DNA of 24,982 nt, from positions 1-24,982 of IMG/VR virus record IMGVR_UViG_3300045588_000067; one strand, 5' to 3'. The stretch is from a virus. Both the position numbers and the translations under genes were made by a program. The notes under the pieces were generated by a model. It saw only the letters and a program-made list of their open reading frames with translations, searched no databases and had not been told where the DNA came from. Positions within the stretch are counted from its first letter, which is position 1; every line of letters begins with the position of its first letter. Shown piece by piece: positions 4,415 through 21,468 of this stretch.

Positions 4415-4458
4415 CAAAAATAACAAAAGCCACCCCGTAAGAGGTGGCTTTGTGCTAC
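4415..4458 (-). promoter_or_regulatory. GTAGCACAA-N27-TATTTTTG promoter of connector operon
   Basis: On the minus strand, GTAGCACAA (4458-4450) is followed after 27 bases by TATTTTTG (4422-4415), a full match to the Bacteroidota -7 consensus TAnnTTTG. The same pair at nearly the same spacing occurs before 6421, before 21420 and at 15348-15304. The start codon at 4411 begins three bases after the box, so the transcript would be leaderless or nearly so. The terminator of the capsid gene occupies the spacer, so capsid transcription ends and connector transcription restarts at one place. Promoter activity is inferred. Confidence 0.6.
4426..4451 (-). terminator. intrinsic terminator after the major capsid gene
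   Basis: AAAGCCACC (4426-4434) is perfectly complementary to GGTGGCTTT (4443-4451), with an eight-base loop. On the minus strand the stem is followed by TTTTGTTATTTTTG. It lies about 35 bases past the capsid stop codon and would end or attenuate the scaffold-capsid transcript, keeping capsid mRNA above that of the connectors. Confidence 0.8.
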
Positions 4459-4487
4459 TTTAGTATAATTTGAACTAACAAAACAAA

Positions 4488-5570
4488 TTATTCAGCAGTT
4501 GCGGTATAACGAAGTAAGCCATTAGAACCAGCTAAGTCGTCATAAGTACCATAAGCATCAGTAGGAACTACATAAACGCCTGCATTGGCTGACAATCTTA
4601 ATAAGAATTTATCCTCACAAGTATCAAATTCAAACTTGGCATCATACATAAGATTTGGAATTACTGTATCTGGAATTGTAAACATTGTAGCTGCTCCAAA
4701 AGTACCTTCAAAAGCATCAACATATTTATTCCAAGACATGAATTGCGCTGAACCTTCGCCCATAACGATCAATTCATTTGCACCAACAATAGTATTAACA
4801 GCTTTGTCGACAAAAAACTTATAATCTTGCGAAACGCTAGAGAAGTCAACACCGCTATTTTGTAAGCCGTATTTGTTTGTTCCTAGGTCGAATTTCTCAA
4901 AGTTGCCTTTACCAATAATGATAGGCGTTCCGTAAAGTTCATTTTCTGTGAAGTCAGAAAGTAAAGTTTGGAACCCTTCAAAAATTGGTGCACCTGCAAC
5001 AATACCAGTCGCACCTGCCGAGATTACAGGGATAGAAGTTGTTGTTGCTACTCCTGATCTTGCATTAATACCAAATGAATTCGATAATTTAGTTACTACA
5101 GCTTCGTTAATTTTAGTTCTTAGAGCGTTTTGAGCATTTAAGATTCTCTTTGTAACCTCTCTTAGATTATACGGAACAGGTAGTCCCGCTACGGCTGAAG
5201 AAGCTTCTTCACAGAATACTCTGATTTCATCCATACCCAAAGAAATATCTACCTGAACATATATATCCAATAGGGTATTATCTTCAATATATTCTACAGG
5301 GTCTCCAGCTACACAGTCAGCTGTAGTTTTTACCTTATCTTTAGTCATACGAGGCATATATTTAATGCGAGCCTCTTTTATGTGACCTTTATTATTTCTG
5401 CCATAAATATCAATTATTTCAGCAGATTGGTTTTCAGGTTGTGATAATGCTAAAGTAGCACCCACTGGAGTTTGTTTAGATTGAGGGTCATTAAGACCTA
5501 CAACCATTTCTAAACCTGTTAATATTGCAGGACATACACCTGCTACGTTGAAATCAATTCCTTGTGCCAT
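4488..5570 (-). CDS. major capsid protein (HK97-fold type)
   Basis: This 360-residue protein is directly downstream of the scaffold-like gene and upstream of a strong terminator, the usual setting of a major capsid gene. It has the expected size. Regions typical of capsid proteins of Bacteroidota phages include the N-terminal MAQGIDFNVAGVCPAIL, the acidic long-helix region LREVTKRILNAQNALRTKI (spine-helix-like, about residues 135-155) and a C-terminal beta-rich domain with TPIIIGKGNFEKF and LRLSANAGVYVV. No protease gene or delta-domain cleavage site is obvious. The ATG at 5570 is two bases from the scaffold stop, implying coupled expression. The assignment rests on context and general composition, so is strong but not proven. 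Confidence 0.85.
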   Translation of the reverse strand: MAQGIDFNVAGVCPAILTGLEMVVGLNDPQSKQTPVGATLALSQPENQSAEIIDIYGRNNKGHIKEARIKYMPRMTKDKVKTTADCVAGDPVEYIEDNTLLDIYVQVDISLGMDEIRVFCEEASSAVAGLPVPYNLREVTKRILNAQNALRTKINEAVVTKLSNSFGINARSGVATTTSIPVISAGATGIVAGAPIFEGFQTLLSDFTENELYGTPIIIGKGNFEKFDLGTNKYGLQNSGVDFSSVSQDYKFFVDKAVNTIVGANELIVMGEGSAQFMSWNKYVDAFEGTFGAATMFTIPDTVIPNLMYDAKFEFDTCEDKFLLRLSANAGVYVVPTDAYGTYDDLAGSNGLLRYTATAE

Positions 5571-5572
5571 AA

Positions 5573-6421
5573 TTATAATCCGTTTGATTGTTTAGCTTTT
5601 GCTAAGTTTTGAGCAAAAGTGTTATTAATTGGTTTTGTTGCTTGCGCTTGCGCTTGTTGAGTAACAACAGGAGGCGTAACGGTTGCAACGTGCAATAGAT
5701 TTTTTTCTGCAAGGGCTTTTTGAATACCTGTTTTGATGTCCAAATCGGTAACATCTAAACTTTCGTCGGATAGTCTTTTTAGCTTTAATTCGCCATTTTG
5801 TAAAACAACTTTAGCATCTTTAGATTTGAAGAAATCTGATACGGCTTGCTTAGCAAGCGTTCCACGATATTCTGAAGGGATACTTTCGCTTATTTTATGT
5901 TGGTTAATAAAACTTGACATGTTCCAATCAATCTCTTTATTAATAGATTGGTTTACTAGGTCAATGTTTGCCGATTTAAAGCTTTCAACTTGGTTTGATA
6001 ATTCTGAAATCTTTGATTTATATTCTAAGTCTAAAGCTTTCATTTTTTCATCATTGCCACTTGCTTTTGTTTTTGCTTCGATAAGCTTATTAGCTTCATC
6101 CGTTAATTTTGATATTCTTTTGAATGTTTTAGGTTCTGAAGCCTTTAGTTCGTTAATCTGTTCATCACTTAGTCCAAGCCCTTTGAAAGCCAAAGTCAGT
6201 TCTTTGTCTGTCGCATCGGCAAACTCACTAAAGAATTTTGCTTTGATGTCGGGGTTGTTCTTCGCTTCGTTGGCAGTTAGTAAACCACTTTCAAAAGTCT
6301 TAGCCAATTCTTCATCTATTTCAATAGTTGCAGTTAGGCTGATAAGTTGTTTCAATGATTCATTTGCTGAATCTGTTCCCACTTTCGTGGCTAAGGTTGT
6401 AATAAGTTCTCCTAATAACAT
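5573..6421 (-). CDS. scaffolding-like capsid assembly protein
   Basis: From the ATG at 6421 the protein has 282 residues. It is highly charged and helical, with coiled-coil character in the middle (TDEANKLIEAKTK to LSNQVESFKSANID) and a Gln/Ala-rich tail (VVTQQAQAQATKP), then AQNLAKAKQ. Low complexity, charge and position just before the capsid gene are the marks of scaffolding proteins, which guide procapsid assembly and leave. An in-frame ATG at 6487 would add MYIKKLISLLYLEK, but the promoter-like -7 box TATATTTG at 6459-6452 lies downstream of it. For that reason I prefer 6421. The gene is divergent from the island on the other strand, with which it shares a 91-base promoter region. Confidence 0.75.
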   Translation of the reverse strand: MLLGELITTLATKVGTDSANESLKQLISLTATIEIDEELAKTFESGLLTANEAKNNPDIKAKFFSEFADATDKELTLAFKGLGLSDEQINELKASEPKTFKRISKLTDEANKLIEAKTKASGNDEKMKALDLEYKSKISELSNQVESFKSANIDLVNQSINKEIDWNMSSFINQHKISESIPSEYRGTLAKQAVSDFFKSKDAKVVLQNGELKLKRLSDESLDVTDLDIKTGIQKALAEKNLLHVATVTPPVVTQQAQAQATKPINNTFAQNLAKAKQSNGL

Positions 6422-6451
6422 AAGGACAGTTTTTTGTTTAGTTAATTTTTC

Positions 6452-6496
6452 CAAATATAAAAGGGATATTAATTTTTTTATGTACATTTGTGCTAC
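6452..6496 (-). promoter_or_regulatory. GTAGCACAA-N28-TATATTTG promoter of scaffold-capsid genes
   Basis: GTAGCACAA (6496-6488, minus strand) is followed after 28 bases by TATATTTG (6459-6452), a full match to TAnnTTTG. The predicted transcript would start near 6447 and have a leader of about 26 bases before the ATG at 6421. No TTG-like -33 element is seen at the usual distance. The GTAGCACAA element overlaps the -7 box of the opposite promoter. Confidence 0.6.
6483..6490 (+). promoter_or_regulatory. -7 box of the plus-strand island promoter
   Basis: TACATTTG matches the Bacteroidota -7 consensus TAnnTTTG and lies 23 bases before the first ATG of the island (6513). It is the only full match in the intergenic region on this strand. 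A clear -33 TTG is not visible at 17-23 bases upstream. The box overlaps the GTAGCACAA element serving the opposite strand by three bases, so the two promoters probably cannot be fully occupied together. Confidence 0.5.
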
Positions 6497-6512
6497 CTTG
6501 TTAATCTTAAAT

Positions 6513-6758
6513 ATGGGATATAAAAATAAAAATAATAGTACGGGTAAGAATAGGATTTGCTCATATATTAATGATGCTTCATTGCTATTCTTAGACGCTC
6601 AAAGTAAGGGGCTTACAAGATATAGAAGCGAAAGTGTTAGGCGAATGATTAACGAGCATATGCTTTGCGAAAATTTGACTGGAAAAACAGTTTGGCAAGT
6701 AATTAAAGATAATATTGAATTAAGAAAAGAAATTTTAAAATTAAAAAGATATGAATAA
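6513..6758 (+). CDS. small helical protein, first gene of island
   Basis: This 81-residue protein starts at the ATG at 6513. The frame stays open far upstream, but that part is antisense to the scaffold gene and lies before the promoter. The N-terminus is basic (MGYKNKNNSTGKNR). It is followed by a helical region (DASLLFLDAQSKG, RSESVRRMINEHM) and a charged helix at the C-terminus (NIELRKEILKLKRYE). It could be a small DNA-binding or regulatory protein, but no motif proves it. It overlaps the methyltransferase start by eight bases (ATGAATAA), so translation is probably coupled. Function unknown. Confidence 0.6.
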   Translation: MGYKNKNNSTGKNRICSYINDASLLFLDAQSKGLTRYRSESVRRMINEHMLCENLTGKTVWQVIKDNIELRKEILKLKRYE

Positions 6759-7272
6759 ACACCCTTGGAATAGCGAATATGCAGTAAGTTCACTTATTGC
6801 TGAATTGATTAAGATTAAATCATGCACTAATGTTTTGGAAATTGGCGTTTTTCAGGGACAAACAGGGCTTGCGATGATTAACGCATTGCCTAAAAATGGC
6901 TCTTACACGGCTCTTGACATTACAGAAGAAAACTATACCACTGATTTTAAAACTAAGCTAAAGAAACACACTTCTTTAATTGGTAATAGCTTGGATTTGT
7001 TGCATACATTACCCAATAGAAGCGTAGACTTAATATTTATCGATAGCGTTCATGAATATGCGCACCTTAGCAAAGAGTTCAAAATATGTGAGAATATCAT
7101 TAAGCAAAATGGATTGATTGTACTACATGATTCTATCTTGTTTGTTGGCGTTGCTCAATTTGTGAAGGAGTTGAAAAATAATAAAGGATTTGAAATCTTG
7201 ACTTTAGAAACTCCAGAGGAGGGCGACCGGACCCCTAGTGGCTTAACAATTATTAAATGCTTATATCCGTAA
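6751..7272 (+). CDS. class I SAM-dependent methyltransferase (Methyltransf_24-like)
   Basis: In this 173-residue protein SAM motif I is VLEIGVFQGQTG (residues 28-39). An acidic residue ends the second strand (ALDITEE, D56). VDLIFIDSVHEYAHLSKEF (92-110) and GLIVLHDS (121-128) complete the pattern. The 'FIDs.HeY......D/E......L...G.ivlHD' arrangement is that of Methyltransf_24 and cephalosporin-hydroxylase-like O-methyltransferases, which often act on sugars or small phenolics near glycan loci. The length is short but complete for the core fold. It sits in the island with a second, FkbM-type methyltransferase. Methylation of host or phage glycan is inferred from that pairing; the substrate is unknown. 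The next gene begins two bases after the stop. Confidence 0.8.
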   Translation: MNKHPWNSEYAVSSLIAELIKIKSCTNVLEIGVFQGQTGLAMINALPKNGSYTALDITEENYTTDFKTKLKKHTSLIGNSLDLLHTLPNRSVDLIFIDSVHEYAHLSKEFKICENIIKQNGLIVLHDSILFVGVAQFVKELKNNKGFEILTLETPEEGDRTPSGLTIIKCLYP

Positions 7273-7274
7273 TT

Positions 7275-7649
7275 ATGATAGAACTAATAAAAGGCAATAC
7301 CTATAATATAAAATTATCAGGACACGATTTAGGTAATTTAAAATTTAATAATACTATTTATTATGGAGACCATAATTCATATTCATATTTGTCATTTGAA
7401 GGATTATTACAAATTCAATTAAATGAAATAAATTTATATGAGATTAAATTAGTTGAAGAATCTGATTATATTGATAGTTGGAATTTAAAAACAGGTGGAA
7501 CATATCTTATTGGAGCAAAAAAAGAAATAGCCAAATATTATACAGTAGTTGGTAAATATATTGATGGATATATTTTAATGGATGAAGAAAAAATATTATC
7601 TAAACGGTTAAAAGTATCATTTGTAAATTATAGAGTATTTAAAGATTAA
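7275..7649 (+). CDS. hypothetical island protein, strongly AT-rich gene
   Basis: This protein has 124 residues from the ATG at 7275, chosen because it follows the preceding stop by two bases. An earlier in-frame ATG overlaps the methyltransferase. The protein is rich in Tyr, Ile, Asn and Lys, with many short beta-strand-like segments (MIELIKGNTYNIKLSG, YDGYILMDEE-type turns). It has no signal peptide, membrane segment or catalytic motif that I can recognise. The gene is visibly more AT-rich than the structural genes, in line with separate acquisition. Function unknown. Coupling to its neighbours puts it in the same transcript as the Imm-like gene that follows four bases later. Confidence 0.6.
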   Translation: MIELIKGNTYNIKLSGHDLGNLKFNNTIYYGDHNSYSYLSFEGLLQIQLNEINLYEIKLVEESDYIDSWNLKTGGTYLIGAKKEIAKYYTVVGKYIDGYILMDEEKILSKRLKVSFVNYRVFKD

Positions 7650-7653
7650 AATT

Positions 7654-7815
7654 ATGTTCTATTTATTGTTAATATTCTTGTACTTCGTGCCGTCTATGGT
7701 GGCGTACGGTAAACAACAATTCAATCAAATTGTTGTATTAAATCTTTTTTTAGGGTGGACTGGTATCGGGTGGGTAGCTAGTTTAGTATGGGCTTTAAGC
7801 AACGTAAAAGAATGA
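7654..7815 (+). CDS. superinfection immunity protein, Imm-like
   Basis: This 53-residue membrane protein resembles the Imm_superinfect family (Pfam PF14373, named after T4 Imm). Phages of that family make such proteins to stop DNA of a later phage from entering the already infected cell. The signature is plain: a first hydrophobic segment ending in YFVPSMVAY (residues 10-18), a short polar turn with KQQFNQ, then NLFLGWTGIGWVASLVWAL (30-48). The 'YF.P...A......ivvLNLfLGWT.iGWv.aLvWAl' order is diagnostic. Two transmembrane helices are expected, both ends on the same side. It begins four bases after the previous stop and its TGA overlaps the next ATG (ATGA). The family match is from recall of the motif and is strong. 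Confidence 0.88.
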   Translation: MFYLLLIFLYFVPSMVAYGKQQFNQIVVLNLFLGWTGIGWVASLVWALSNVKE

Positions 7816-8021
7816 TAATAATAAAAATAATAGCACTTATAATAGTGTGTTTTCTCGGGTCTTATGCAACATATTATTTCAATGTAGAAGAATATGATAC
7901 AATGTTGTTTAAATTGTCAATGATATTACTTGGTAGTACAATGGCTTTAATCATTACAATTATGTTATCTTGTATGTTTGTATTGTTCAAATTATTGTTT
8001 ATAAATTTTATTCTTAACTAA
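7812..8021 (+). CDS. small two-helix membrane protein
   Basis: This protein has 69 residues from the ATG at 7812, which overlaps the stop of the Imm-like gene by four bases. An ATG at 7788 in the same frame lies inside the Imm-like gene and is less likely. Two hydrophobic helices are clear: IIIKIIALIIVCFLGSYATYY near the N-terminus, and a long C-terminal stretch beginning MILLGSTMALIITIML. A short acidic loop with NVEEYDT joins them. No family recognised. Its coupling to the Imm-like gene suggests a partner in the membrane, possibly a second superinfection-exclusion factor. A holin-like role is an alternative but is less consistent with the early, separate transcript. Confidence 0.65.
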   Translation: MIIIKIIALIIVCFLGSYATYYFNVEEYDTMLFKLSMILLGSTMALIITIMLSCMFVLFKLLFINFILN

Positions 8022-8031
8022 TCCAAAAGTA

Positions 8032-8670
8032 ATGAGAAAACAAACTTTAAAAGATGGTACGTTTATATACACTCACGACAAAGGCGAGTATATAAGCGAC
8101 GTAATTGAGCAAACAGGGTGGTACTATGAGCCTAAGACAATCGACTATATTAAGAACCTTAATCTAAAAGATTGCAATATTCTTGATATTGGTGCCAATA
8201 TTGGCAATCATAGTCATGCCATGCAAAAGTTTAGTGATAATTGTCAGATTGGGTCATTTGAACCATATCAAAAAAACTTTGATATACTTAAAAAAAATGC
8301 TAGGTTTTCTTACAACAATTTTGTGACTAATAAAAATGATGAAAAAACATATAGTATTGATCCAGTTTGGGGAGGTGCCAATTTAGGCTATATTACATCA
8401 AGTAAAGATGGCGAAAAAGTTAATAATACATTTATTGATTACTATGAACTTGATAATATAAGCCTAATTAAAATTGACATCGAAGGTCACGAATTAGAAG
8501 CGTTGAAAGGGGCTTTTAATACGATTAAAAAAAGTAAGCCTTGCATCATTGCCGAACACCACACCAACGAAGAACACCTTCAAGTAATGGACTACCTTAA
8601 ACAATTTGGTTATTACTTAGCCACTATAATAGAAGAGGATAATTTAAACTACGTTTATAAACCTATTTAA
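8032..8670 (+). CDS. FkbM family methyltransferase
   Basis: This 212-residue protein has the hallmarks of FkbM methyltransferases. They are ILDIGANIGNHSHAM (SAM motif I, about residues 50-64), FEPYQKNF (76-83, the acidic end of strand two), and LIKIDIEGHELEALKGA (145-161, the catalytic-side signature of the family). FkbM enzymes transfer methyl groups to hydroxyls of sugars or polyketides and are common in glycan loci. The gene is the last of the island and runs 27 bases into the end of the convergent MuF-like gene. A methylated surface or virion glycan as substrate is inferred. A long perfect inverted repeat begins 14 bases past its stop. Confidence 0.88.
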   Translation: MRKQTLKDGTFIYTHDKGEYISDVIEQTGWYYEPKTIDYIKNLNLKDCNILDIGANIGNHSHAMQKFSDNCQIGSFEPYQKNFDILKKNARFSYNNFVTNKNDEKTYSIDPVWGGANLGYITSSKDGEKVNNTFIDYYELDNISLIKIDIEGHELEALKGAFNTIKKSKPCIIAEHHTNEEHLQVMDYLKQFGYYLATIIEEDNLNYVYKPI

Positions 8671-9543
8671 GTCAATCTTAGGCACTATCTTTTCACTTAC
8701 AGGTATAATCTGATGGTTGCATTGCCATCCACCCCTGTAAGTGAAAATAGTAGTCTTATTGGTTCCTGCAATCATTCCACCTCCTTTGTGAAGCTTCGTT
8801 TTGCAACTGTTCCAAAGTGAAGGCGTTTCTCCCCAATGTTCAACCTCTGTAACGTGAAAATATTTATCAACACGCTCCAAACAAAAGCACCTAGAACTTG
8901 TTTTTCTACCCCCTTGATACTTATACCATTTTAAGCCTAAGTCATCGCTTACGGTTTTAATATAATTCGCAGAATATTGGTTTAAAGAGTCCGTAGCAAT
9001 CTGTTTAACATTCTTCATTAAGTACCCTAAATTCTCTTTATCTCCTATAATCTTTACTTTTAAATCTTGTATTAGTTCAGTTAGATTTGAACCGCTTGTA
9101 ACTGACTTACTAAGGTAGTCAGATATAGGATTGATGATGTCATTTGATACACCAGCACCTAGCAAGCTTTCAGTTGTAATGCTTACCGAGTTATTCAATA
9201 TTGCTTTGAACAGTTCGCCTTTACCGTTAAAATCTGAAACTATGGTACTGAAATAACTATCAATTAATGTCTTTGTTTCTTCAAAACTATTAAGGTAGGC
9301 ATTTACGTCTTGCTTATAATCGTCATTTAATATAATGGCGTTTAGTTTTGATTTTACTTTTTGAATCTGTTTAAGGTTTTCGACACTTGTTTTAATGTTG
9401 CCATTTGCAGTTTGAAGCTTTGATAATTCAATACTTAATTCATTGAATATAGCTTTCTCAATTGATGGGATAGATTTCTCTACACTATCAATTGAGTTTT
9501 GAATACTGTCGAAAATCTGACTTATTAATTCGTCTTGATTCAT
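8644..9543 (-). CDS. MuF-like minor head (head morphogenesis) protein
   Basis: This 299-residue protein follows the portal directly, as MuF/SPP1 gp7-type minor head proteins do. A long helical N-terminal region leads to a C-terminal domain. That domain contains SSRCFCLERVDKYF (Cys 219 and 221) and, after GGGMIAGTNKTTIFTYRG, the ending GGWQCNHQIIP (W273, C275, H277, P280). The 'R..C......, G.W.C.H...P' pattern is characteristic of the MuF-type domain, in which Cys and His residues probably bind metal. Such proteins bind the portal or DNA in the head. Its start overlaps the portal stop by one base, and its 3' end overlaps the island's FkbM gene by 27 bases. Confidence 0.82.
   Translation of the reverse strand: MNQDELISQIFDSIQNSIDSVEKSIPSIEKAIFNELSIELSKLQTANGNIKTSVENLKQIQKVKSKLNAIILNDDYKQDVNAYLNSFEETKTLIDSYFSTIVSDFNGKGELFKAILNNSVSITTESLLGAGVSNDIINPISDYLSKSVTSGSNLTELIQDLKVKIIGDKENLGYLMKNVKQIATDSLNQYSANYIKTVSDDLGLKWYKYQGGRKTSSRCFCLERVDKYFHVTEVEHWGETPSLWNSCKTKLHKGGGMIAGTNKTTIFTYRGGWQCNHQIIPVSEKIVPKIDLNRFINVV
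8684..8751. repeat. 14-bp perfect inverted repeat at island boundary
   Basis: TTTTCACTTACAGG (8690-8703) and CCTGTAAGTGAAAA (8734-8747) are exact complements. ACTA (8684-8687) and TAGT (8748-8751) extend the stem past a two-base bulge. The loop holds a smaller stem, GATGG with CCATC. It lies within the last codons of the MuF-like gene, just beyond the stop of the plus-strand island. No T-run follows on either strand, so it is not a classical intrinsic terminator. Confidence 0.85.
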
Positions 9544-11522: not shown

Positions 11523-11524
11523 GG

Positions 11525-12445
11525 TTAATATTTTACACGTTCTTTAAGATAGTCCCTTTTGTCAATCCATAAAAACGGATTCTTTACATTTTGATGTTGT
11601 GCATAATTCCATTTAACATGATCATTATACAAGTCTTTCAATCCCTTCGACATGATATGTCCTGCCATGCTAATAAAAAAATAATTCTTTTCTATTAAAG
11701 CCCTTTCGGTAGGTTTTACACCTCTTTTTTTGCCTTCATCAACAATCTCGCTCATAGGGTAAAAAAATATATCTTTATACGGATTCTCAACCTTGAAATT
11801 TAGATTTAACAAACTTAAACTAAAAGCTAATTCATCGGGCATACTATCCGCCCAATCTCTGAATTGAAAATCCCTTGTAATGAATAAGTCTTTAGCACGT
11901 GCAAAAATTTGTTCGGCTTCTTTTGACTTTTTAAAATACAGAAATGAACTTTGCAAGTGATAGTAGTAGGCATCTTTTTTTAATTTAAAATACTTGCGTA
12001 AATCTCTTACTGTTTCCCCTTCCTTAAACCAAAAATTACTATTGTCGCTATCAACTGGGTAGTGTGCATTTGGGTGGTATAAGGTAAATCCAAAATTCAC
12101 GGCTTTGTAAGTATTGAATAAATCATTTACTTTTTTGTTCTTAATCCAAATCGAATCACTATCAATATACACAGTTTCATCAAATGGGCTTAAATCGTAA
12201 ATCATGGTTTTTGCCAATGGAATTTCGACTTTACCATTAATGGTGTAATCTTTAGGGGTAATCTCTATGAAGTGCGTGAAGTATTTTTTTTCAAAGATAT
12301 TAAACTTATCTTTTACCCCTTCGTTGCTTACTAATGCAATTTGAGCATCAGGATTTGATACCCTAATGCTCATTGCAAGATTGAAAGCCATTCGCCTATA
12401 ATTATCGTGACCTAATGCCACTATAATGATGCCTTTATTTTCCAT
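11525..12445 (-). CDS. glycosyltransferase, GT-A fold
   Basis: This 306-residue protein has the layout of a nucleotide-sugar glycosyltransferase of the GT-A type. The N-terminus GIIIVALGHDNYRRMAFNLAMSIR has a strand-turn-helix start like glycogenin/GT8-related enzymes. YIDSDSIWI (residues 93-101) gives the DxD metal site at D95 and D97, in the expected place near residue 95. A later SSFLYFKKS and DELAFSLSL (the acceptor-side acidic DE) fit the same fold. It lies between the tail tube and portal genes on the late transcript, so it is made with virion proteins. Glycosylation of a capsid or tail protein, or of a host polysaccharide, is possible. The substrate cannot be read from sequence. Confidence 0.8.
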   Translation of the reverse strand: MENKGIIIVALGHDNYRRMAFNLAMSIRVSNPDAQIALVSNEGVKDKFNIFEKKYFTHFIEITPKDYTINGKVEIPLAKTMIYDLSPFDETVYIDSDSIWIKNKKVNDLFNTYKAVNFGFTLYHPNAHYPVDSDNSNFWFKEGETVRDLRKYFKLKKDAYYYHLQSSFLYFKKSKEAEQIFARAKDLFITRDFQFRDWADSMPDELAFSLSLLNLNFKVENPYKDIFFYPMSEIVDEGKKRGVKPTERALIEKNYFFISMAGHIMSKGLKDLYNDHVKWNYAQHQNVKNPFLWIDKRDYLKERVKY

Positions 12446-12469
12446 TTAATTGTTAGTTTTTAGGGAAAA

Positions 12470-12994
12470 TTAGACAGTAAATAGAGTTGATGGACTTGTA
12501 TAAGGTGTAGGCATTTCCATTTCTGCCCATTTAACAGTCACATTGAAGTTGACACCCTCTTGTAAGTTGTCTGTAATTGGCAAAGTAGAAGCTAATTGAA
12601 TACCTTTAGTTTGACCCCAAATTAATGATTCAGTAGCAAAGAAAACATTGTAATTATTACTTGCTAAAGCAAATTCATTATAGAATGTAACGTTATTTTT
12701 TACAGTATAATCCATGTAAGTTAATACGTGATTTCTTCCTGTTAGCTGTGCGCTATTGTCACCAAATCCAGTAGATTCAACAACAACACCACCATCATAA
12801 GCACCTCTTACATTCTTAATAACAAGCGCATCGCCCGAAGCAATCAACGCAGTCCATTCTGAAGCACTTGAAGGGTCTGTAATAGTTGCTGTTTTCTTTT
12901 TAAGAATAAGGTGCCTTACTCTACCATTTTCAATATTTCCGCAATCATCTGCTACATAGTCAGGGATGGCTTGGCAATCGGTGTAAATACTCAT
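12470..12994 (-). CDS. probable major tail tube protein
   Basis: This 174-residue beta-rich protein resembles tail tube proteins of Bacteroidota siphophages. An N-terminal CGNIENGRVRHLILKK is followed by TDPSSASEWTALIASG, a glycine-rich turn (GAYDGGVVVESTGFG) and a later NVTFYNEFALAS. It lacks membrane segments and coiled coils. It is downstream of the tail tip genes and upstream of the glycosyltransferase and portal. In a normal siphophage the tube gene lies upstream of the tape measure, so the order here is unusual. Another structural role cannot be excluded. A GTAGCACAA element lies about 70 bases upstream of the start, without a good -7 box. Confidence 0.6.
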   Translation of the reverse strand: MSIYTDCQAIPDYVADDCGNIENGRVRHLILKKKTATITDPSSASEWTALIASGDALVIKNVRGAYDGGVVVESTGFGDNSAQLTGRNHVLTYMDYTVKNNVTFYNEFALASNNYNVFFATESLIWGQTKGIQLASTLPITDNLQEGVNFNVTVKWAEMEMPTPYTSPSTLFTV

Positions 12995-13015
12995 AATTAA
13001 TTATTTTTTAAGTGT

Positions 13016-13753
13016 TTATAAACAATTCGAATTAACGAAATTATAATTTGACTTACTTAGTATTGTGCTACCTTGGGCAAGTGAATACCGTTCAATTGTC
13101 TTAATCGAATATTCGCTAGCTTTTACGTAAGGTTCGCCATTGACATTCACATTGTCGTGCATAAATGCTAAGTTCAATTTCTCGTGTTCGTAACGTGGGA
13201 TATAGTCGGTTAAAAATAGGTTTTTATTTTTTAGCGTGCTTGCTAGTTTAATTATAGTTCCGTTTGATTGTTCGTACGTTGTGCTTGTTTCTTCATAATT
13301 TACCTCGTGCCCAAATTGACTAGACACATAAGCGTAATTAACATAGTTGGCGTAGTCTATCGTGTCAAATATCTCATTGTTGGTATATTCAAGTAAAACC
13401 AAGTCATCAAACTCGGCACCTACTCTTAATGGCTCACTTTCAGCTATCACATCAATAGGTTCGGGCGTTGCTATGTTTTGTTGATTGGTATAAATATAGC
13501 AGTGTAGGCACTTATTATATAAGTTGGCATATGTCGATAGATTGAAGCTCCATTTGTACAAGTTATCTCCACATGATGTACCTAGATTCTCATATATGAC
13601 ATTATTATCCTCATCGAAGAACCCAAGATAAGGCACGTTTGCGCCATCGTATTCAATTTGTGTAACGAATACACCCCATGTTGGATAAGGTTGTTTGTAT
13701 GGGGCAATTTCTACCCCCACAATATTTTCAAAACGGTATAAAGTATCTGCCAT
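13016..13753 (-). CDS. tail structural protein, function unknown
   Basis: This 245-residue protein is rich in Tyr, Asn and Glu, and beta-strand-rich. The C-terminus reads KTIERYSLAQGSTILSKSNY. YSLAQGSTI is close to YSVGKGSTI near the end of the 739-residue tail protein encoded nearby, suggesting a shared structural element. It overlaps the upstream gene by one base and precedes the probable tail tube gene by 21 bases. I cannot assign it to a family; a distal tail or baseplate component is the best guess from position. The GSTI codons also carry one of the GTAGCACAA elements. Confidence 0.65.
   Translation of the reverse strand: MADTLYRFENIVGVEIAPYKQPYPTWGVFVTQIEYDGANVPYLGFFDEDNNVIYENLGTSCGDNLYKWSFNLSTYANLYNKCLHCYIYTNQQNIATPEPIDVIAESEPLRVGAEFDDLVLLEYTNNEIFDTIDYANYVNYAYVSSQFGHEVNYEETSTTYEQSNGTIIKLASTLKNKNLFLTDYIPRYEHEKLNLAFMHDNVNVNGEPYVKASEYSIKTIERYSLAQGSTILSKSNYNFVNSNCL
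13063..13071 (-). other. GTAGCACAA element without a clear -7 box
   Basis: This is an exact copy of the nine-base element found in four promoter-like sites. It lies about 70 bases upstream of the probable tail tube gene. At 27-28 bases downstream only a poor match, TTAATTCG, is found. It may be a weak site, or a coincidence of coding for Gly-Ser-Thr-Ile. Confidence 0.35.
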
Positions 13754-14643: not shown

Positions 14644-14654
14644 ATTTTATTTTT

Positions 14655-15026
14655 TTAATAGAAACTATTTACTGTGCAATTATAGAAATTACCCATTTTT
14701 AATCCTGTATTAATTATGTCTTGAACCGTTGAGCCTGCGTAATCTCCGCAATCAACATTATCGAACAGCGCAACGCCTTCCCATCCTATTTTCCCGAACT
14801 TATCAACTACTTGAATGACGTAGTTTTTAGCCTCTAGTCCGTTGAATTGATTGCTTGATTGTGGTTCACTTCTATCAATAACGTATCTATATGGTGCCGT
14901 TCCTCCCGATACCACAACTACAATAACTCCATTATCCAATCCTAATGATGGATTGGTCTTAATGGTTGAAACTGTGAGGCTTCCCGTTATAAATTTAGAT
15001 TGATTCGCTTTGCTTATAAATATCAT
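14655..15026 (-). CDS. small tail protein with SprB-repeat-like fold
   Basis: This protein has 123 residues from the ATG at 15026. A TTG three codons earlier is possible. VVVVSGGTAPYRYVIDR (about residues 36-52), followed by FNGLEAKNYVIQVVDKFG, is the pattern of the SprB repeat. That Ig-like module (GG..PY.Y ... L..g.Y.v.v.D..G) recurs in Bacteroidota surface adhesins. The rest is short. It overlaps the preceding 64-residue gene by 32 bases. A host-derived adhesin-like module in a phage tail could help bind the cell surface. The role is inferred, but the motif is clearly visible. Confidence 0.7.
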   Translation of the reverse strand: MIFISKANQSKFITGSLTVSTIKTNPSLGLDNGVIVVVVSGGTAPYRYVIDRSEPQSSNQFNGLEAKNYVIQVVDKFGKIGWEGVALFDNVDCGDYAGSTVQDIINTGLKMGNFYNCTVNSFY

Positions 15027-15189
15027 TTGTATCAATTAACATTTGCAAAATTTGCGATTCTGTTTGAGTATCTCCCCAAGACATCAATATAGCAATCTCA
15101 TTCATACCTCCACCTAGATTAACTAATAAGTCGGATATTTGTTTTTGAATCTTATAATGTGTTTCGCTATATTCTTCTATTTCTTCCAT
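14995..15189 (-). CDS. small helical tail-operon protein
   Basis: This 64-residue acidic protein is mostly helical (YSETHYKIQKQISDLLVNLGGG, then SQILQMLIDTNDIY). It is encoded one base after the stop of the 739-residue tail protein and overlaps the SprB-like gene by 32 bases. This tight packing supports its being real. No family is recognised. It could be a small tail-tip subunit or assembly factor. Nothing in the sequence decides between these. Confidence 0.6.
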   Translation of the reverse strand: MEEIEEYSETHYKIQKQISDLLVNLGGGMNEIAILMSWGDTQTESQILQMLIDTNDIYKQSESI

Positions 15190-15190
15190 A

Positions 15191-17410
15191 CTACTCTACA
15201 TATTCATCAACTACATAAGGGCACTCAACATAAATAAGGTCGCATTGTGGCTCATTGCCGTACAACTTAATTAAATCAAAGTTCGCCATGCCTTGTACTG
15301 GCATAAATGTAACCATTTTAATGTAGCCCCTATGTTCAATTGTGCTACCTTTGCCAACCGAATAATACCCGTACTTATTATCAATCATGTAATTAAAGTT
15401 TGATAAACTCATAGGGTAGTCAAATTTAATGCTTATAGGCTCGTATATTGGCGAGTTAATAAGATTGTTCTCATCATCCCATGCCAAGTTTTGATTTTCT
15501 TTAAGCACCGCATTATTATATCTATCTGTACAATTACCTATTAATTGGCTTTCATATAGATAGTTGTTTTTGCCGTTGGTGAACTGCGCTGACTTGCCTG
15601 CAATCTTAGCGTAAGCGCCTGATATAATTTGATTCCAATTCAACATCATGCGCATAGGGGTAAGCCTTAGATTATAACCAGTTCCAGGGCTTAATATATT
15701 TTGCGTTGAAAAGTTTTCATTTCTTTCGGCTAGGTTCAATTCCGTCGCATATCCTGATACACTTTCAGTGCGTTTTGTGCATATTAAAAAATTATCGTCG
15801 TCAAATTTCCATGACGATGTACTTGTTTCTAGGTATTGCACACGTCTTGTAAACTCAATGGCGTAGTGGTCGGCTACGTACTTGCATACATTAACAAATT
15901 CACGCTTTACCGTTGTTATTGGTAGGCTGTAAGAATGATTAGTGGCAAAACCATCTAGTGTATTACTTTTGTCCGTGCCTTCCTCTGTACCTTCTTTTTC
16001 AAAACCAATCTTTACGGTATTGAAAACCCTGTTTTGATCTACTGATACATTGATTGATTTGATATTAGTAATGTCATTTATATTTGTTTCGTTGTAAAAA
16101 TAGCTTACAGGCTCAACCCTTATAATCTCGTTACCCCCATCATTTTCAAGTCCTAAGCCTAGACAATGAACTGCAGACAATGAGGAATATATATCTGTTA
16201 AGTTCGCTAGTATAGGCTTGTCAAAGCTTCGTATATTGAAACCGTTTGTCAGCGCCATGAATGAACCGCACCCGTTCGCACCGTACCCTAAATCTTTACG
16301 CCCCAAGAAATTACTTTTAAATGCTGTACGCTTATCTAGTGCATTTTGCGCCACACGTTCAAAACATTCATGTATCATGTATGTCTTTGCCGTGCTCGAT
16401 GGCGTTTCTGTTTCTGATTTAAAATAAATGTTTGCAGTATTAAAAAGTAGGTAAAAATATGATATACTTGATGTTGGAACAGAATAGTTGGCAATTACTA
16501 AGTAAATTTTAACAACATCATTTGCATTTAACGTTAATGATAAGGTTTCATTAATATCGAATAATACAGTTAGTGGAGATAGTGGATTTTGCGCCCCAAT
16601 ATCATAAATCGAATAAGGCGTGCCATTAATTGAGTATGTCCATTGAAGGTTATAGCTACGCCCTAATGCCGTAGTTATTGAATCCACAAATGAACCTTCA
16701 CATTCAAATATTAAATCATAAACACCATCATAAGCTGGTATAAATGTAGGTTCAATTAGTGCTATATCTGTTGTTATATTCTCAATTAGTTGCGCATTTA
16801 TTCCCGTGGTACTACTTATGCTTAAGTCATTGCTTTTTACATAAACAGGCATTGGCAAAAAATATGTTTGGCTTACATCAATATTGACAGTTTCAGCAAT
16901 CAAAGGAACGCTTTCGGTAACCGTATCAAATACGCTTGTTAGCACAATAGCTTTGCTGTGCATCGTCATAGTGTTAGGCAATAGTGGCGGTAGTGATTCA
17001 TCTGTAAGGTGTAAAACCTTGCTAAAATCAACTATCTTGTCACTATTATTCTTCATTAACATTGTATTGCTATCTTGTTCAATGTTAGTGATACATGAGC
17101 AAAAAATATTAAACCTATCTTGAAATCCTGCAAGGTTTACACGCCCTGTATAAAGTGTTTGATATTCGTATGAAGCATTGCACCTCTGCTCTATGCGTAT
17201 CTTTAAAAGGTACTCAATCCCGTAAGTATAGAACGCATTAGCAATAATTGTATATCCATCGTTTACAAACTCTAATTCGTCTGTGTAGCTTGTAAAAATG
17301 CCATGGTATTTATCATCTCTTGCGTAAGTAATCTTACACTTATCCCACCCTATCGGCTCATCAATAACCGTTTCAACCTCACCATCTATTAACGTGAATT
17401 TATACTCCAT
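15191..17410 (-). CDS. large distal-tail / tail-tip protein
   Basis: This 739-residue protein is directly downstream of the tape measure gene and overlaps its end by 11 bases. That is the usual place of the distal tail and tail-associated proteins. It starts YKFTLIDGEVETVIDEPIGWDKCKITY. Its N-terminal part has many beta strands (EYLLKIRIEQRC), suggesting an adaptor domain that joins the tube. The C-terminal part holds YYSVGKGSTIEHRGYIKM. No lysozyme, peptidase or glycosidase motif is evident. Tail-hub, tail-tip or baseplate role is inferred from position. The gene contains a promoter-like element near its end. Confidence 0.7.
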   Translation of the reverse strand: MEYKFTLIDGEVETVIDEPIGWDKCKITYARDDKYHGIFTSYTDELEFVNDGYTIIANAFYTYGIEYLLKIRIEQRCNASYEYQTLYTGRVNLAGFQDRFNIFCSCITNIEQDSNTMLMKNNSDKIVDFSKVLHLTDESLPPLLPNTMTMHSKAIVLTSVFDTVTESVPLIAETVNIDVSQTYFLPMPVYVKSNDLSISSTTGINAQLIENITTDIALIEPTFIPAYDGVYDLIFECEGSFVDSITTALGRSYNLQWTYSINGTPYSIYDIGAQNPLSPLTVLFDINETLSLTLNANDVVKIYLVIANYSVPTSSISYFYLLFNTANIYFKSETETPSSTAKTYMIHECFERVAQNALDKRTAFKSNFLGRKDLGYGANGCGSFMALTNGFNIRSFDKPILANLTDIYSSLSAVHCLGLGLENDGGNEIIRVEPVSYFYNETNINDITNIKSINVSVDQNRVFNTVKIGFEKEGTEEGTDKSNTLDGFATNHSYSLPITTVKREFVNVCKYVADHYAIEFTRRVQYLETSTSSWKFDDDNFLICTKRTESVSGYATELNLAERNENFSTQNILSPGTGYNLRLTPMRMMLNWNQIISGAYAKIAGKSAQFTNGKNNYLYESQLIGNCTDRYNNAVLKENQNLAWDDENNLINSPIYEPISIKFDYPMSLSNFNYMIDNKYGYYSVGKGSTIEHRGYIKMVTFMPVQGMANFDLIKLYGNEPQCDLIYVECPYVVDEYVE
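15304..15348 (-). promoter_or_regulatory. intragenic GTAGCACAA-N28-TACATTTA promoter-like site
   Basis: GTAGCACAA (15348-15340) and TACATTTA (15311-15304) lie 28 bases apart, the same spacing as before the scaffold gene. The second box matches TAnnTTTG except for its last base. It is inside the distal tail gene, about 115 bases before the start at 15189, and could lift expression of the later tail genes. The element also codes for the conserved Gly-Ser-Thr-Ile. Confidence 0.4.
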
Positions 17411-20075
17411 ATCGGTTGTTTAGTTTTTCTTGCTTTAAGTGTTCTGAATAAAGGAATGTTTTAAAACCATCTTTATCAATCGAAATGTGATTCTTTGGCA
17501 TACTTCGCAATTCTTTTGCAAGATGAGAAGTGTCTAGGTTTACATTGGACATTTTTTGTCCACTTATCATCATGTTAGCCAGTTCGGGGCTTAGTTCCTT
17601 ACGTCTTATGCTTTGTAGTAACGGCTTAAATTTGCTTGTTTCTTCTGCTGTCATAACGCTTTCGCCCTTCGATAACATGGCATGGATTTCGTCACTTGTT
17701 CCCGTTCCTTTTCCTTGTAAATCAATTACGCCCTTTGCAAATTTTGGAGTAGGTTGTGACGCTATCAAAGCTGTTTGTATTGCACCGCTTGCGATTACTA
17801 AAGGTACCATAAAAGGTGCGGTTAATGGAGTTTTCCAAGCACTTGCAATACCTTGGGCGGTATCAATAGCTACATTTATAAGCGCTATTTGTTTGTTTTG
17901 TTCAAACTGTTGTTTTCTTATCTTAGCCTCTGCAAGTTGATATTTCTTAGCAATAGCATCTTTTTTAGCTTGGTTATCTCCTGCAAGCTTTAACTCACGT
18001 TCCTCTTTGTCTTTAAGGTCGATAAGTTCTTGCTCGTTAACATTCGATTTGTATTGATAAACAGCATTAATGCCTTGCTTAACTACATCCATAGCTTGTT
18101 TAGCTATTTCTTCCCTATTTTTTTGATGTTCTTTATCATCCTCCTCTACCTCATCATTTGCATCTTTATTTAACTTTACTTTTTTCTCTGCTATTTTACG
18201 CTGTAATGCAATGTATTCGTCGGAATTCAAAACTAAAGCATTAAGCTTTTCTTCATCTGATTTAATTTGAGCCTTCAAAGAAAGTTTTTCAAACTCCTTT
18301 TCTATTTTCTTACGTTCTTCGAGTTTCTGCTTAACAGTTAAATTTTGATTGTCGTATAGGCTTATTAAAGCATTTGCTTTGTCAATTGCGATGCTGTCTT
18401 GCGTGATTGAATTTTGGCGGTCTAGTGTTTTCTTTAAATCATCTTCGTCTTTTTTGTGTTGATCGAATGTTGCTTTACTCCATTCCTCATTGGCTTTTTT
18501 TCTTGCTTCTAAATCATCCTTAGTTTGCTTTTCTATTTTCTTGCCAATTGTAATCACGTTTACAATCGTGCTTTCTTGGTCTTGCTTTTGTTTAGTGTTT
18601 AGGATTTTTGAATATTTATCATAAATATCAACCCTTTTGTCGTTGTATTTAGCCTCTATTTTTAGAATCTCAATTTCTTTTGCCCCTGCATTAACCGCCT
18701 TTTGTTTTGCGATTTGTTCCTCATGTTTAAGCAAATTTAAAGCGTCATCAACTATCTTTTTTTGCGCTGATTCCTGCGCTTTACGTTCTTTGTCGGTAAA
18801 TTCTTTGGTTGTTACCTCTTTTGATTTTAAATATTCTTCATATTGCCTCTTGAGTTCATCTTGTCTAAATTTACGCTCTTGTAAGTATGCTTGAGCCTCT
18901 TTAATAGCTATCTTCTTTTCTTTTGTTGCTCCAATTTCCGCCAAAGCTAATGATGCTTTATTGGCACTTTCAATAGTAGAAAGTTTTACATTAGCTACAT
19001 CCTCAAGGTTTTCTTTTGCCGATTTATAATCTTTATTATAAACTGATAACTTGTCCAAGTAAGCCTTTTCCATTGCTTGTTTTTCGTCTTGCTTGGACTT
19101 CTCTGATTCTTTTTTTATACTATCAAAATATGAAGTAATACTTTTTTGAGCAAAACTATTTGAAGCGATAGTGCTTTCTGATAGTTCTTGCTCTTTAGTT
19201 TTTAGTATTTCTGTTAAAAAAGTTATCCTCTCTGAAATAAAGCCAATAGCATCTCCAAAAATCTTTGAAGTATTATTTCCAATTGATATTAAAAACTTAT
19301 CCCATTTATCTCCAAGGTTTGAAATTTTGCCGCCTAGAGTTTCACTAATAGCGGCGGTTGAACCCATAACCCCATTTAAATCTCCAAGTCCTAGCAAGTA
19401 ATTTTTAATAGCTTCTTGCGTGTTCTTAACCTCGGTAGTTACCCCCTTAAACGTGTATTGAGTTGTTTCTCCTGTTTTCTTGGCTGTGATACCAAACTCT
19501 TTAAGCCTCTCATTCTCGCCCGTGAAAGCGTCAAGAGTTGCCTCTGTTAATTGGTCAATAGACTTGCCTGTACTATTGGCAATGTCGGCAAGCTTCATCA
19601 TTTCATTTTGTGAAAGCTTTAAACCTCTATTGGCAAATTTTATATAGGTGTCAGTAAGTTCCATTACCGAAAAATTTGTCTTAATGGCTACGTCTGAAAT
19701 TTGAGCCATAGCAATATCGGCTAAGTTCTGACTGCCTAGAGTGTTGGTTAATACCGCCCTATACTTCTGTACTTGGCTAGTAATATCTATTACAGTTTTA
19801 CCAAATGCCACTACCGAACCAATAGCGAAAGCACCTGCAATGGCGTTGCCTATGCCATCAAACGAGCCCCTAAACTTATCAATCGATTGTTTTGAGTTAT
19901 CAACGCCATCCTTTACCTTTTTACTACCCTCGGTGGCTTGCTTTCCTGTTTCAGTTAGTTCTTTTCCAGTCTTATCAATAGAGTTAGCAAGATTATTATA
20001 GTCTTGCGTTGCTTTCTTAACATCTGCGGTATCTACTACAAAAACGGTCTTAACTACTTTGATATCGGTTGCCAT
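17400..20075 (-). CDS. tail tape measure protein
   Basis: This 891-residue protein is the longest here. It fixes tail length and is ejected with the DNA. The N-terminus (MATDIKVVKTVFVVDTADVKKATQDYNNLANSID in pattern) is followed by a glycine/alanine-rich hydrophobic stretch (about 76-97). A long Lys/Glu-rich coiled-coil region occupies roughly residues 300-730. A second hydrophobic helix lies at 753-774 (APFMVPLVIASGAIQTALIASQ in pattern), then the C-terminal FAKGVIDLQGKGTGTSDEI..LSKGESVM. This last motif, ending in 'GE.V.t..E', is typical of tape measures. The ATG at 20075 follows the end of the predicted frameshift extension of the tail chaperone by two bases. Confidence 0.92.
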   Translation of the reverse strand: MATDIKVVKTVFVVDTADVKKATQDYNNLANSIDKTGKELTETGKQATEGSKKVKDGVDNSKQSIDKFRGSFDGIGNAIAGAFAIGSVVAFGKTVIDITSQVQKYRAVLTNTLGSQNLADIAMAQISDVAIKTNFSVMELTDTYIKFANRGLKLSQNEMMKLADIANSTGKSIDQLTEATLDAFTGENERLKEFGITAKKTGETTQYTFKGVTTEVKNTQEAIKNYLLGLGDLNGVMGSTAAISETLGGKISNLGDKWDKFLISIGNNTSKIFGDAIGFISERITFLTEILKTKEQELSESTIASNSFAQKSITSYFDSIKKESEKSKQDEKQAMEKAYLDKLSVYNKDYKSAKENLEDVANVKLSTIESANKASLALAEIGATKEKKIAIKEAQAYLQERKFRQDELKRQYEEYLKSKEVTTKEFTDKERKAQESAQKKIVDDALNLLKHEEQIAKQKAVNAGAKEIEILKIEAKYNDKRVDIYDKYSKILNTKQKQDQESTIVNVITIGKKIEKQTKDDLEARKKANEEWSKATFDQHKKDEDDLKKTLDRQNSITQDSIAIDKANALISLYDNQNLTVKQKLEERKKIEKEFEKLSLKAQIKSDEEKLNALVLNSDEYIALQRKIAEKKVKLNKDANDEVEEDDKEHQKNREEIAKQAMDVVKQGINAVYQYKSNVNEQELIDLKDKEERELKLAGDNQAKKDAIAKKYQLAEAKIRKQQFEQNKQIALINVAIDTAQGIASAWKTPLTAPFMVPLVIASGAIQTALIASQPTPKFAKGVIDLQGKGTGTSDEIHAMLSKGESVMTAEETSKFKPLLQSIRRKELSPELANMMISGQKMSNVNLDTSHLAKELRSMPKNHISIDKDGFKTFLYSEHLKQEKLNNRYGV

Positions 20076-20077
20076 AA

Positions 20078-20296
20078 TTATTTTTTATTTGCTTGTTTCT
20101 CCATTTCTTCAATAAACAAATGGTATTCGTAAATACTTAACCCTCTAATGCTATTGAGTTCAGTAGGGCTTCCTTTTGCAAGATTAAGCCTTTCGCTAAA
20201 TCTCCTTTCAATGCCTCGTGTGAAAGATTGTGCAAGATGTTGTCTAATTGCAGAACCGTTAATTGTCTTACCTCGTGGTTCATTTGAGTAAAGGTC
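20078..20296 (-). CDS. -1 frame extension of the tail assembly chaperone (gpT-like)
   Basis: In the -1 frame relative to the chaperone gene, codons stay open past its stop and end at 20078, just two bases before the tape measure ATG. The distal part reads SPTELNSIRGLSIYEYHLF followed by an acidic helix and Lys/Asn end. It has no usable start codon of its own, so it would be made only by frameshifting. If the slip occurs at 20302-20296 the fusion is 168 plus 72 residues. A slip at the end of the upstream frame (GGT before TAA) would add only the last 20 residues. Shifted chaperone products of this kind are known in most siphophages (gpG-gpT of lambda). Confidence 0.55.
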   Translation of the reverse strand, partial: DLYSNEPRGKTINGSAIRQHLAQSFTRGIERRFSERLNLAKGSPTELNSIRGLSIYEYHLFIEEMEKQANKK

Positions 20297-20799
20297 TTTA
20301 AATCTATTTTTGAGAAATCTAAAGAGGGTATTAAGTTTTGTAAAGGCAAGACTCGGAAAAAATCCATTAATTTATCTTTTTTCCATTCTTTTATCTTCTT
20401 TTCATTGTAAGCAAAGTCATAAACTAAAGGACTTTCATTTTCATCAAAGAATACAACACTTGCTAATTTTAGTAACAAATCGGGGTCACTAACTAGGCTA
20501 AGTCTTAATTTTAGATCGTGGTTTAACTTAACCACCTCGGTTAATTTACCATTATTACAAGCTGTTTCTATTGCTTCATTGTGTGCCAATAGGAACGCCC
20601 TATCACATTTCATCGTCAACTCATCATAATAGCTTACCGCTGTAAATGCACGCTCGCACGGAATGTTAGTATAGTCCGCCATTTGATAGTAATTCTTGCC
20701 GTTATGCTTAAAGGCAAATTCTATTACATAGTTCGTTTCTTTTCTCCAAACTGGAGGATTCGAACCAAAGAACTTTGTTAGTTTTTCTTTTAGTTTCAT
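20137..20799 (-). CDS. tail assembly chaperone (gpG-like)
   Basis: This 220-residue protein is encoded directly upstream of the tape measure, the standard place of tail assembly chaperones, which keep the tape measure soluble during tail building. It is helical, and contains YTNIPCERAFTAVSYYDEL (about residues 43-61) and a charged middle region. The C-terminal part is amphipathic (HEVRQLTVLQLDNILHNLSH). Its length is larger than lambda gpG but plausible for this group. It overlaps the membrane-protein gene by four bases. A canonical slippery heptamer, T TTA AAG, lies at codons 166-168 in the right phase for a -1 shift into the overlapping frame. The chaperone call is from position and architecture. 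Confidence 0.7.
   Translation of the reverse strand: MKLKEKLTKFFGSNPPVWRKETNYVIEFAFKHNGKNYYQMADYTNIPCERAFTAVSYYDELTMKCDRAFLLAHNEAIETACNNGKLTEVVKLNHDLKLRLSLVSDPDLLLKLASVVFFDENESPLVYDFAYNEKKIKEWKKDKLMDFFRVLPLQNLIPSLDFSKIDLKTFTQMNHEVRQLTVLQLDNILHNLSHEALKGDLAKGLILQKEALLNSIALEG
20296..20302 (-). other. candidate slippery heptamer T TTA AAG
   Basis: The minus-strand heptamer TTTAAAG is in zero-frame phase T TTA AAG across codons 166-168 of the chaperone gene. It fits the X XXY YYZ rule for -1 frameshifting and resembles lambda's G GGA AAG. It is 52 codons from the stop, rather far upstream. An alternative slip site is GAG GGT at the stop codon. Stimulatory structure was not evaluated. Confidence 0.4.
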
Positions 20800-21071
20800 T
20801 CTTTATAAGATATTGATAATAAACAACTATACACCTCGCACAATGCGAGTGTAAGGAACCCACACAGGATGCTTTGATAGGTAAATCCGTTTACCGAGCC
20901 TACCGCAATCCCGTACCACCATCCCATACACGTAGGACATCCGAAAACTGGTTTTAATAACCATATTGATTTATATTGATTTAATTCGCCAAATATCATT
21001 CCTTCCTCGGTGCTTTGATAAACGGTTATAACAATAGCCGTAGCAAGCAATACACTATCGTAGATACTCAT
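20796..21071 (-). CDS. small membrane protein with CPTC motif (DUF1360-like)
   Basis: This protein has 91 residues from the ATG at 21071. A longer frame opens upstream inside the previous gene. Three hydrophobic segments are clear: SVLLATAIVITVY near the start, GWWYGIAVGSV (51-60), and SILCGFLTLALCEVYSCLL near the end. Between the first and second lies the motif PVFGCPTCMGWW (C45, C48). A 'CP.C.g.W' motif with neighbouring membrane helices is typical of the DUF1360 family found in phages and Firmicutes. The function of that family is unknown. Holin-like activity cannot be excluded, but no lysis gene is next to it. It sits between the post-terminase gene and the tail chaperone. Confidence 0.65.
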   Translation of the reverse strand: MSIYDSVLLATAIVITVYQSTEEGMIFGELNQYKSIWLLKPVFGCPTCMGWWYGIAVGSVNGFTYQSILCGFLTLALCEVYSCLLSISYKE

Positions 21072-21420
21072 AGGTAGCGCTTGAATTAGAATCAATAAAT
21101 GTCAATATAAAGCAATTGTATGTCACGCTTTTAAATGTCAATTCAATAGGCGTGTCAAGGTCTGCGGTTTCGTAAATTTTAAGGGTAAACTCGCCAGCAT
21201 TGCAGTTAAGCAAGTTAGGGGTAAGCAAACTTAAATCAAGTGTGCAAATACCACCTATTGATGTTTCTGTTAGAACCTCAACATTATCAAACTTATCCCA
21301 AAATTCAAAAAGGTAATTGGTAGCATCGGTTAAATCTGCAATCTTGATTTCTTGTAAGCATTGCGACATCGGAACAGCATTATAGCAGTTGCAGGTGTCC
21401 TGATTAATTAGGTAACTCAT
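21055..21420 (-). CDS. hypothetical beta-rich protein after the terminase
   Basis: This 121-residue protein has no recognised family. It has a Cys-rich start (DTCNCYNAVPMSQCL). A beta-sandwich-like pattern follows (ATNYLFEFWDKFDNV, GICTLDLSLLTPNLLN, GEFTLKIYETADL, TYNCFILTFIDS) that reads like an Ig-like or jelly-roll domain. It could be a tail or head decoration protein. Its start codon lies four bases past the -7-like box of a promoter-like site, so its mRNA may be leaderless. The next gene overlaps its end by 17 bases. The role is unknown; the context is structural. Confidence 0.6.
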   Translation of the reverse strand: MSYLINQDTCNCYNAVPMSQCLQEIKIADLTDATNYLFEFWDKFDNVEVLTETSIGGICTLDLSLLTPNLLNCNAGEFTLKIYETADLDTPIELTFKSVTYNCFILTFIDSNSSATYEYLR

Positions 21421-21424
21421 AATG

Positions 21425-21468
21425 TAAAAATATGCCTTATTGAATTACTTTATTGCCATTTGTGCTAC
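21425..21468 (-). promoter_or_regulatory. GTAGCACAA-N27-TATTTTTA promoter-like site
   Basis: GTAGCACAA (21468-21460) includes the TAG stop of the terminase gene. After 27 bases comes TATTTTTA (21432-21425), one mismatch from TAnnTTTG in its last base. The ATG at 21420 begins four bases later, again giving a leaderless or nearly leaderless transcript. The spacing equals that of the site at 4458. Confidence 0.55.

Follow-up and report, generated by a model that had tools for sequence, protein, structure and literature searches.

A conserved element at predicted late promoters of a Bacteroidota phage group and a divergently encoded candidate regulator

A short element, GTRGCACA, recurs in the late regions of a group of related tailed phages at a fixed distance upstream of Bacteroidota-type -7 boxes, and its third base varies together with a small protein encoded divergently from one of the sites. 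On balance, these sequence patterns make it probable, by no means certain, that a small phage regulator, probably of the ribbon-helix-helix (RHH) type, binds GTRGCACA, activates the late promoters and represses its own gene.

Source of the window and related contigs

The analyzed window was an entire IMG/VR record of 24,982 bases. It represents a fragment of a tailed-phage genome that encodes terminase, portal, tape-measure and further virion proteins. The names "capsid" and "scaffold" were inferred from gene order and sequence, since no family model named either gene. Thirteen related IMG/VR contigs (G001-G013) were retrieved by searches with capsid, terminase and virion proteins, and the largest of them measured 44.8, 44.3 and 40.4 kb. 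Most of these contigs are incomplete and the early regions are missing from most of them. A search with the 174-aa gene returned only contigs that were already known. Two diverged copies of the counterpart of the window gene at 2734-3270 were observed in G002 (596-1132 and 44216-44701, as oriented here), near opposite contig ends, suggesting that this contig may be closable or that the gene was duplicated.

No relative was found among cultured phages for the capsid protein or for the whole window, and the best of the terminase matches listed for cultured phages had 24-27% identity. More distant terminase relatives were located in Bacteroidota genomes, Pedobacter included, therefore supporting a Bacteroidota host. 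The distant terminase relatives (34-41%) showed no repeated element comparable to this one, and no convincing match to the candidate regulator was obtained in them. Pattern scans of IMG/VR for the promoter returned 127 stretches, and those outside this phage group were apparently single chance matches.

Occurrence and conservation of the element

Five exact copies of GTAGCACAA were confirmed in the window at the positions given below, all on the minus strand (shuffle mean 0.18). Four of the five are followed by TANNTTT at 27, 28, 28 and 27 nt (0.01 in shuffles), as the preliminary description had reported. In a count over all 9-mers, GTAGCACAA was the most enriched of the window (P=5e-7); the pattern was picked post hoc, and set against the 262,144 possible 9-mers this value leaves the window by itself marginal and not decisive. 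It is the 13 related contigs, rather than the window, that settle the reality of the boxes.

The consensus in the aligned relatives was GTRGCACA(A), found at matching places. Four relatives carry GTGGCACAA instead of GTAGCACAA, and an exact search for GTAGCACAA is therefore misleading in the relatives. Pattern searches in the relatives gave matches confined to the late strand, while the reversed control pattern gave 0 matches. In most phages all sites share one form, either GTAG or GTGG. At sites A and E the element is located N27/28 upstream of the box in all phages holding the region, and at site B in most of them. At both A and E, every phage has its ATG 47-49 nt from the motif start.

Site E (GTAGCACAA, 21460-21468, minus strand) overlaps the stop codon of the terminase gene (21467-21465), and its -7 box TATTTTTA (21425-21432, minus strand) lies N27 from the motif and 4 nt before the ATG at 21420. 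This site was conserved in 13/13 phages holding the region, always with N27 to TAnnTTT(G/A), the box of the relatives being TAnnTTTG and the ATG being 47-48 nt from the motif start. Mean identity at E was 0.96 in the first eight motif columns, compared with 0.61 in the spacer and 0.52 in the upstream sequence.

Site A (GTAGCACAA, 4450-4458, minus strand) is located 3' of the capsid gene and was present in 9/9 phages. Its -7 box TATTTTTG (4415-4422, minus strand) ends 3 nt before the ATG at 4411; in the relatives the box, TAnnTTT(G/A), follows at N27 or N28 and the ATG at 47-49 nt. The spacer is filled by a terminator-like hairpin with an 11-bp stem (4426-4451, minus strand), whose pairing is maintained in the relatives despite changing sequence, and TATTTTTG doubles as the T-tract of the hairpin. 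Judged from these features, site A is probably a terminator fused to the promoter of the next gene, with the T-tract supplying the predicted -7 box.

Site B (GTAGCACAA, 6488-6496, minus strand) is located between the divergent regulator gene and the scaffold-position gene, whose ATG is at 6421, and its -7 box TATATTTG (6452-6459, minus strand) follows at N28. GTRGCACAA was found at this site in 7/9 phages. The boxes at B vary (TATATTTG, TAAATTTC, TAAATTGC/T and TTCTTTTG) and the ATG lies at 67-76 nt. The window has TATATTTG, while the counterparts in five relatives (among G001-G006) have TAAATTGC/T, which resembles the alternative-sigma motif TAnnTTGY of F. psychrophilum (PMC9723704).

Predicted transcription starts and sigma factor

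In F. johnsoniae the -7 element occupies -12 to -5 and transcription starts 4-5 nt downstream of it (PMC6847099). On this scale the motif would occupy -48 to -40 (N27; centered at about -44), and in most phages the predicted start at E would coincide with the first base of the ATG. The gap at A (3-4 nt) is slightly short for the F. johnsoniae rule. Since the start codon follows the -7 box by 3-4 nt, leaderless or nearly leaderless mRNAs are predicted at A and E, with 5' ends expected on the AUG or immediately beside it. Leaderless mRNAs are uncommon in Flavobacterium, accounting for 5.5% in F. psychrophilum (PMC9723704).

Loss of the boxes from relatives that keep the genes had been proposed as evidence against a phage promoter class; in the relatives the boxes were retained. 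The idea of a phage-specific promoter class at structural genes is supported, in that a conserved upstream element and a Bacteroidota -7 box recur in the relatives at fixed spacing. Sigma-54 promoters have the form TGGCAC-N5-TTGC. A sigma-54 reading was rejected, as none of sites A, B and E, read by eye in the alignment, has TTGC at the required distance.

The TAnnTTTG box had been taken as the Bacteroidota -7 element, and the boxes at A and E indeed fit the primary-sigma consensus (PMC6847099). No sigma-like gene was seen among the ORFs of G002, the one relative that was read by eye. Because of this and of the fit of the A and E boxes, an altered sigma factor, one of the two readers suggested in the preliminary description, is not favoured. 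The other suggestion, a site for a phage activator, gained ground, as an R/Y residue of the candidate protein tracks the third base of the element (see below). The -33 element is normally weak or hardly visible in Flavobacterium (PMC6847099), and its absence at these sites therefore proves nothing.

Copies inside virion genes

Site C (GTAGCACAA, 13063-13071, minus strand) lies inside the gene at 13016-13753, with the ATG of the next gene at 12994. It is the copy without a box; TTAATTCG stands at N27 in the window and TAAATTCG at that place in four relatives. Site D (GTAGCACAA, 15340-15348, minus strand) and its box-like TACATTTA (15304-15311, minus strand, N28) are both internal to the gene at 15191-17410 and not at a gene start. 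The box of D was rejected as promoter evidence, as its letters follow a conserved peptide. In G002, site D reads ATGGCACA.

Third bases were frozen at C (11 phages) and at D; at both sites the three codons read xxT-RGC-ACA throughout, across 10-11 phages. AGC makes up only 12.5% of Ser codons and GGC 13% of Gly codons. The motif at D is the sole 3-codon window with invariant third bases (1/692), and that at C is 1 of 3 such windows among 241 3-codon windows.

The divergently encoded candidate regulator

The candidate regulator (81 aa, 6513-6758, plus strand) is encoded divergently from site B and has an RHH-like N-terminal half. The gene was divergent from site B in 9/9 phages holding the region, with proteins of 71-81 aa. 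In the window it forms the end of a 341-aa ORF (5733-6758, plus strand) that lies opposite the scaffold-position gene and is mostly antisense; only the last 81 residues of this ORF (ATG at 6513) correspond to the regulator conserved in the relatives. A search of IMG/VR for homologues returned only the same 8 contigs, and a search of GTDB genomes returned none. The gene opens an inverted cassette in the late region (6513-8670, plus strand), which also comprises two genes that appear methyltransferase-like by eye and small ORFs. A glycosyltransferase-like gene was noted at 11525-12445 (minus strand).

The N-terminal half consists of a short predicted strand (NRICSYI in the window, NRVVTRI in G002) followed by helices. 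In pairwise comparison it matched the N-domain of NikR in register (E 0.005), the match being limited to this strand/helix half. One regulator member matched BrnA (E 0.012), and the RHH-type antitoxin Rv0298 was matched weakly (E 1.3). Comparisons with Arc, Mnt and Pfam gave no match. AlphaFold2 monomers of middling confidence (mean pLDDT 66-70) displayed three helices, with the strand region unfolded and at low confidence, and fold searches with these models gave no RHH match and nothing convincing. Taken together, these results weakly suggest a ribbon-helix-helix fold.

A predicted -7 box for the regulator gene, TACATTTG (6483-6490, plus strand), overlaps site B. The same arrangement, with the predicted -7 box of the regulator overlapping the motif (TAnnTTTG-TGCTAC), was found in the window, G007 and G008. 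Autorepression is predicted because site B overlaps the predicted -7 box or start region of the regulator gene.

Third base of the element in relation to the regulator

The A/G third base at sites C, D and E required 3 changes on the DNA trees of the respective own genes (terminase, D and C genes, with the motif masked at C and D) and 1 change on the regulator tree. Supported independent contrasts agreed with the regulator type at E (3/3), D (2/2) and C (3/3); each sign test is singly too small for significance and the three sites share some phage pairs. Of the 23 gene families that occur in 7 or more of the 9 phages, only two could be fitted with one change, namely the regulator and the 121-aa gene adjoining site E. 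In the regulator alignment, column 18 was the only column fixed within both classes, with R in GTGG phages and Y in GTAG phages, a comparison that spans only about 6 independent lineages. This column is the third of the alternate positions in the predicted DNA-contact strand. Exceptions were found in G005 and G006, which have GTGG at site A despite a Y-type regulator and GTGTGCCAA at site B. The hosts may differ between the GTGG and GTAG phage classes.

These patterns tentatively suggest that operators are located both between genes and inside virion genes, and that an R/Y change in specificity rewrote them, and with them a Ser/Gly residue of two structural proteins, G005 and G006 being part-way through the switch. 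We regard this scenario as possible, with the odds somewhat against it.

Proposed mechanism and alternative explanations

In the reading that we favour, GTRGCACA would be the binding site of the regulator encoded divergently from site B. The bound protein would cover roughly positions -48 to -40, with a host-type TAnnTTTG -7 box downstream of it, and would most likely assist the RNA polymerase of the host at late promoters B, A and E, of which B precedes the scaffold and capsid genes, A follows the capsid gene and E follows the terminase gene. The regulator perhaps also acts at C and D within virion genes. Binding at B would shut down its own gene.

The main rival is late-gene repression. The same protein would occupy the same sites and would, like SvtR, keep itself and the late promoters repressed, either up to a later stage or during dormancy. 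RHH factors mostly repress, SvtR binds its own promoter and a structural-gene promoter (PMC5569661), and the overlap of site B with the predicted promoter of the regulator is in agreement with such a role. However, the site stands at a fixed 27-28 nt above the core promoter, as expected for an activator, and not over the -7 box, and repression of the late genes appears unlikely to us.

A second rival is another reader of the site, such as a host factor, a phage sigma factor or another early protein, in which case the covariation would reflect linkage or shared hosts. The early regions are missing from most contigs, the RHH fold of the candidate lacks support from Pfam and structure searches, G005 and G006 are partly discordant, and the 121-aa gene beside E fits with one change as well. 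On the other hand, even at sites as far as 15 kb from the divergent gene the third base follows that gene, against the own-gene trees, and the one residue that is completely fixed by class is part of the strand predicted to read DNA. We likewise give this explanation a low probability. A functionless chance repeat combined with coding constraint is very improbable and already disfavoured by the relatives: although the enrichment within the window is marginal once all 9-mers are allowed for and conserved residues explain the letters of the D box, the motif is conserved next to diverged spacers, synonymous codons are frozen and the base covaries in trans.

If the regulator is indeed the reader and the sites embedded in coding sequence are bound, the DNA preference of a regulator would constrain amino acids of unrelated structural proteins. 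A late-gene regulator of this type was not found for Bacteroidota phages in the open-access literature searched. The group offers a candidate protein with its site and promoters, together with a specificity switch that occurs naturally in two states (R/GTGG, Y/GTAG), and binding and specificity are therefore directly testable.

Comparison with known systems

Mnt is a member of the RHH superfamily. Arc belongs to the same superfamily (PMC9731233). Like the candidate, Mnt and Arc of P22 are small phage regulators whose operators, according to the record annotation, lie in a divergent control region. They differ in governing lysogeny and the antirepressor, not structural promoters, and neither matched the candidate in profile comparisons. 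The open-access literature searched yielded no bacteriophage RHH protein that acts as a late activator.

AvtR and SvtR are RHH regulators of archaeal viruses that bind their own and other viral promoters, and AvtR both activates and represses (PMC5569661). They resemble the candidate in being virus-encoded and in binding their own promoter, as predicted here. However, they act in an archaeal transcription system, and their binding sites are different and longer.

The predicted promoters at A and E resemble Bacteroidota primary-sigma promoters (PMC6847099) in the -7 box, with 3-4 nt from it to the predicted start. The promoters described here differ in the extra conserved element at about -44 and in the leaderless starts predicted for them.

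AmrZ of Pseudomonas aeruginosa is an RHH activator and repressor that represses its own gene, and its strand residues Lys18, Val20 and Arg22 recognise GGC (PMC3325190). By analogy, the R-V-R of the candidate could read GTGGCAC as AmrZ reads GGC, the two being likened by strand position. AmrZ is a bacterial chromosomal regulator, whereas activation by a phage protein would be involved here.
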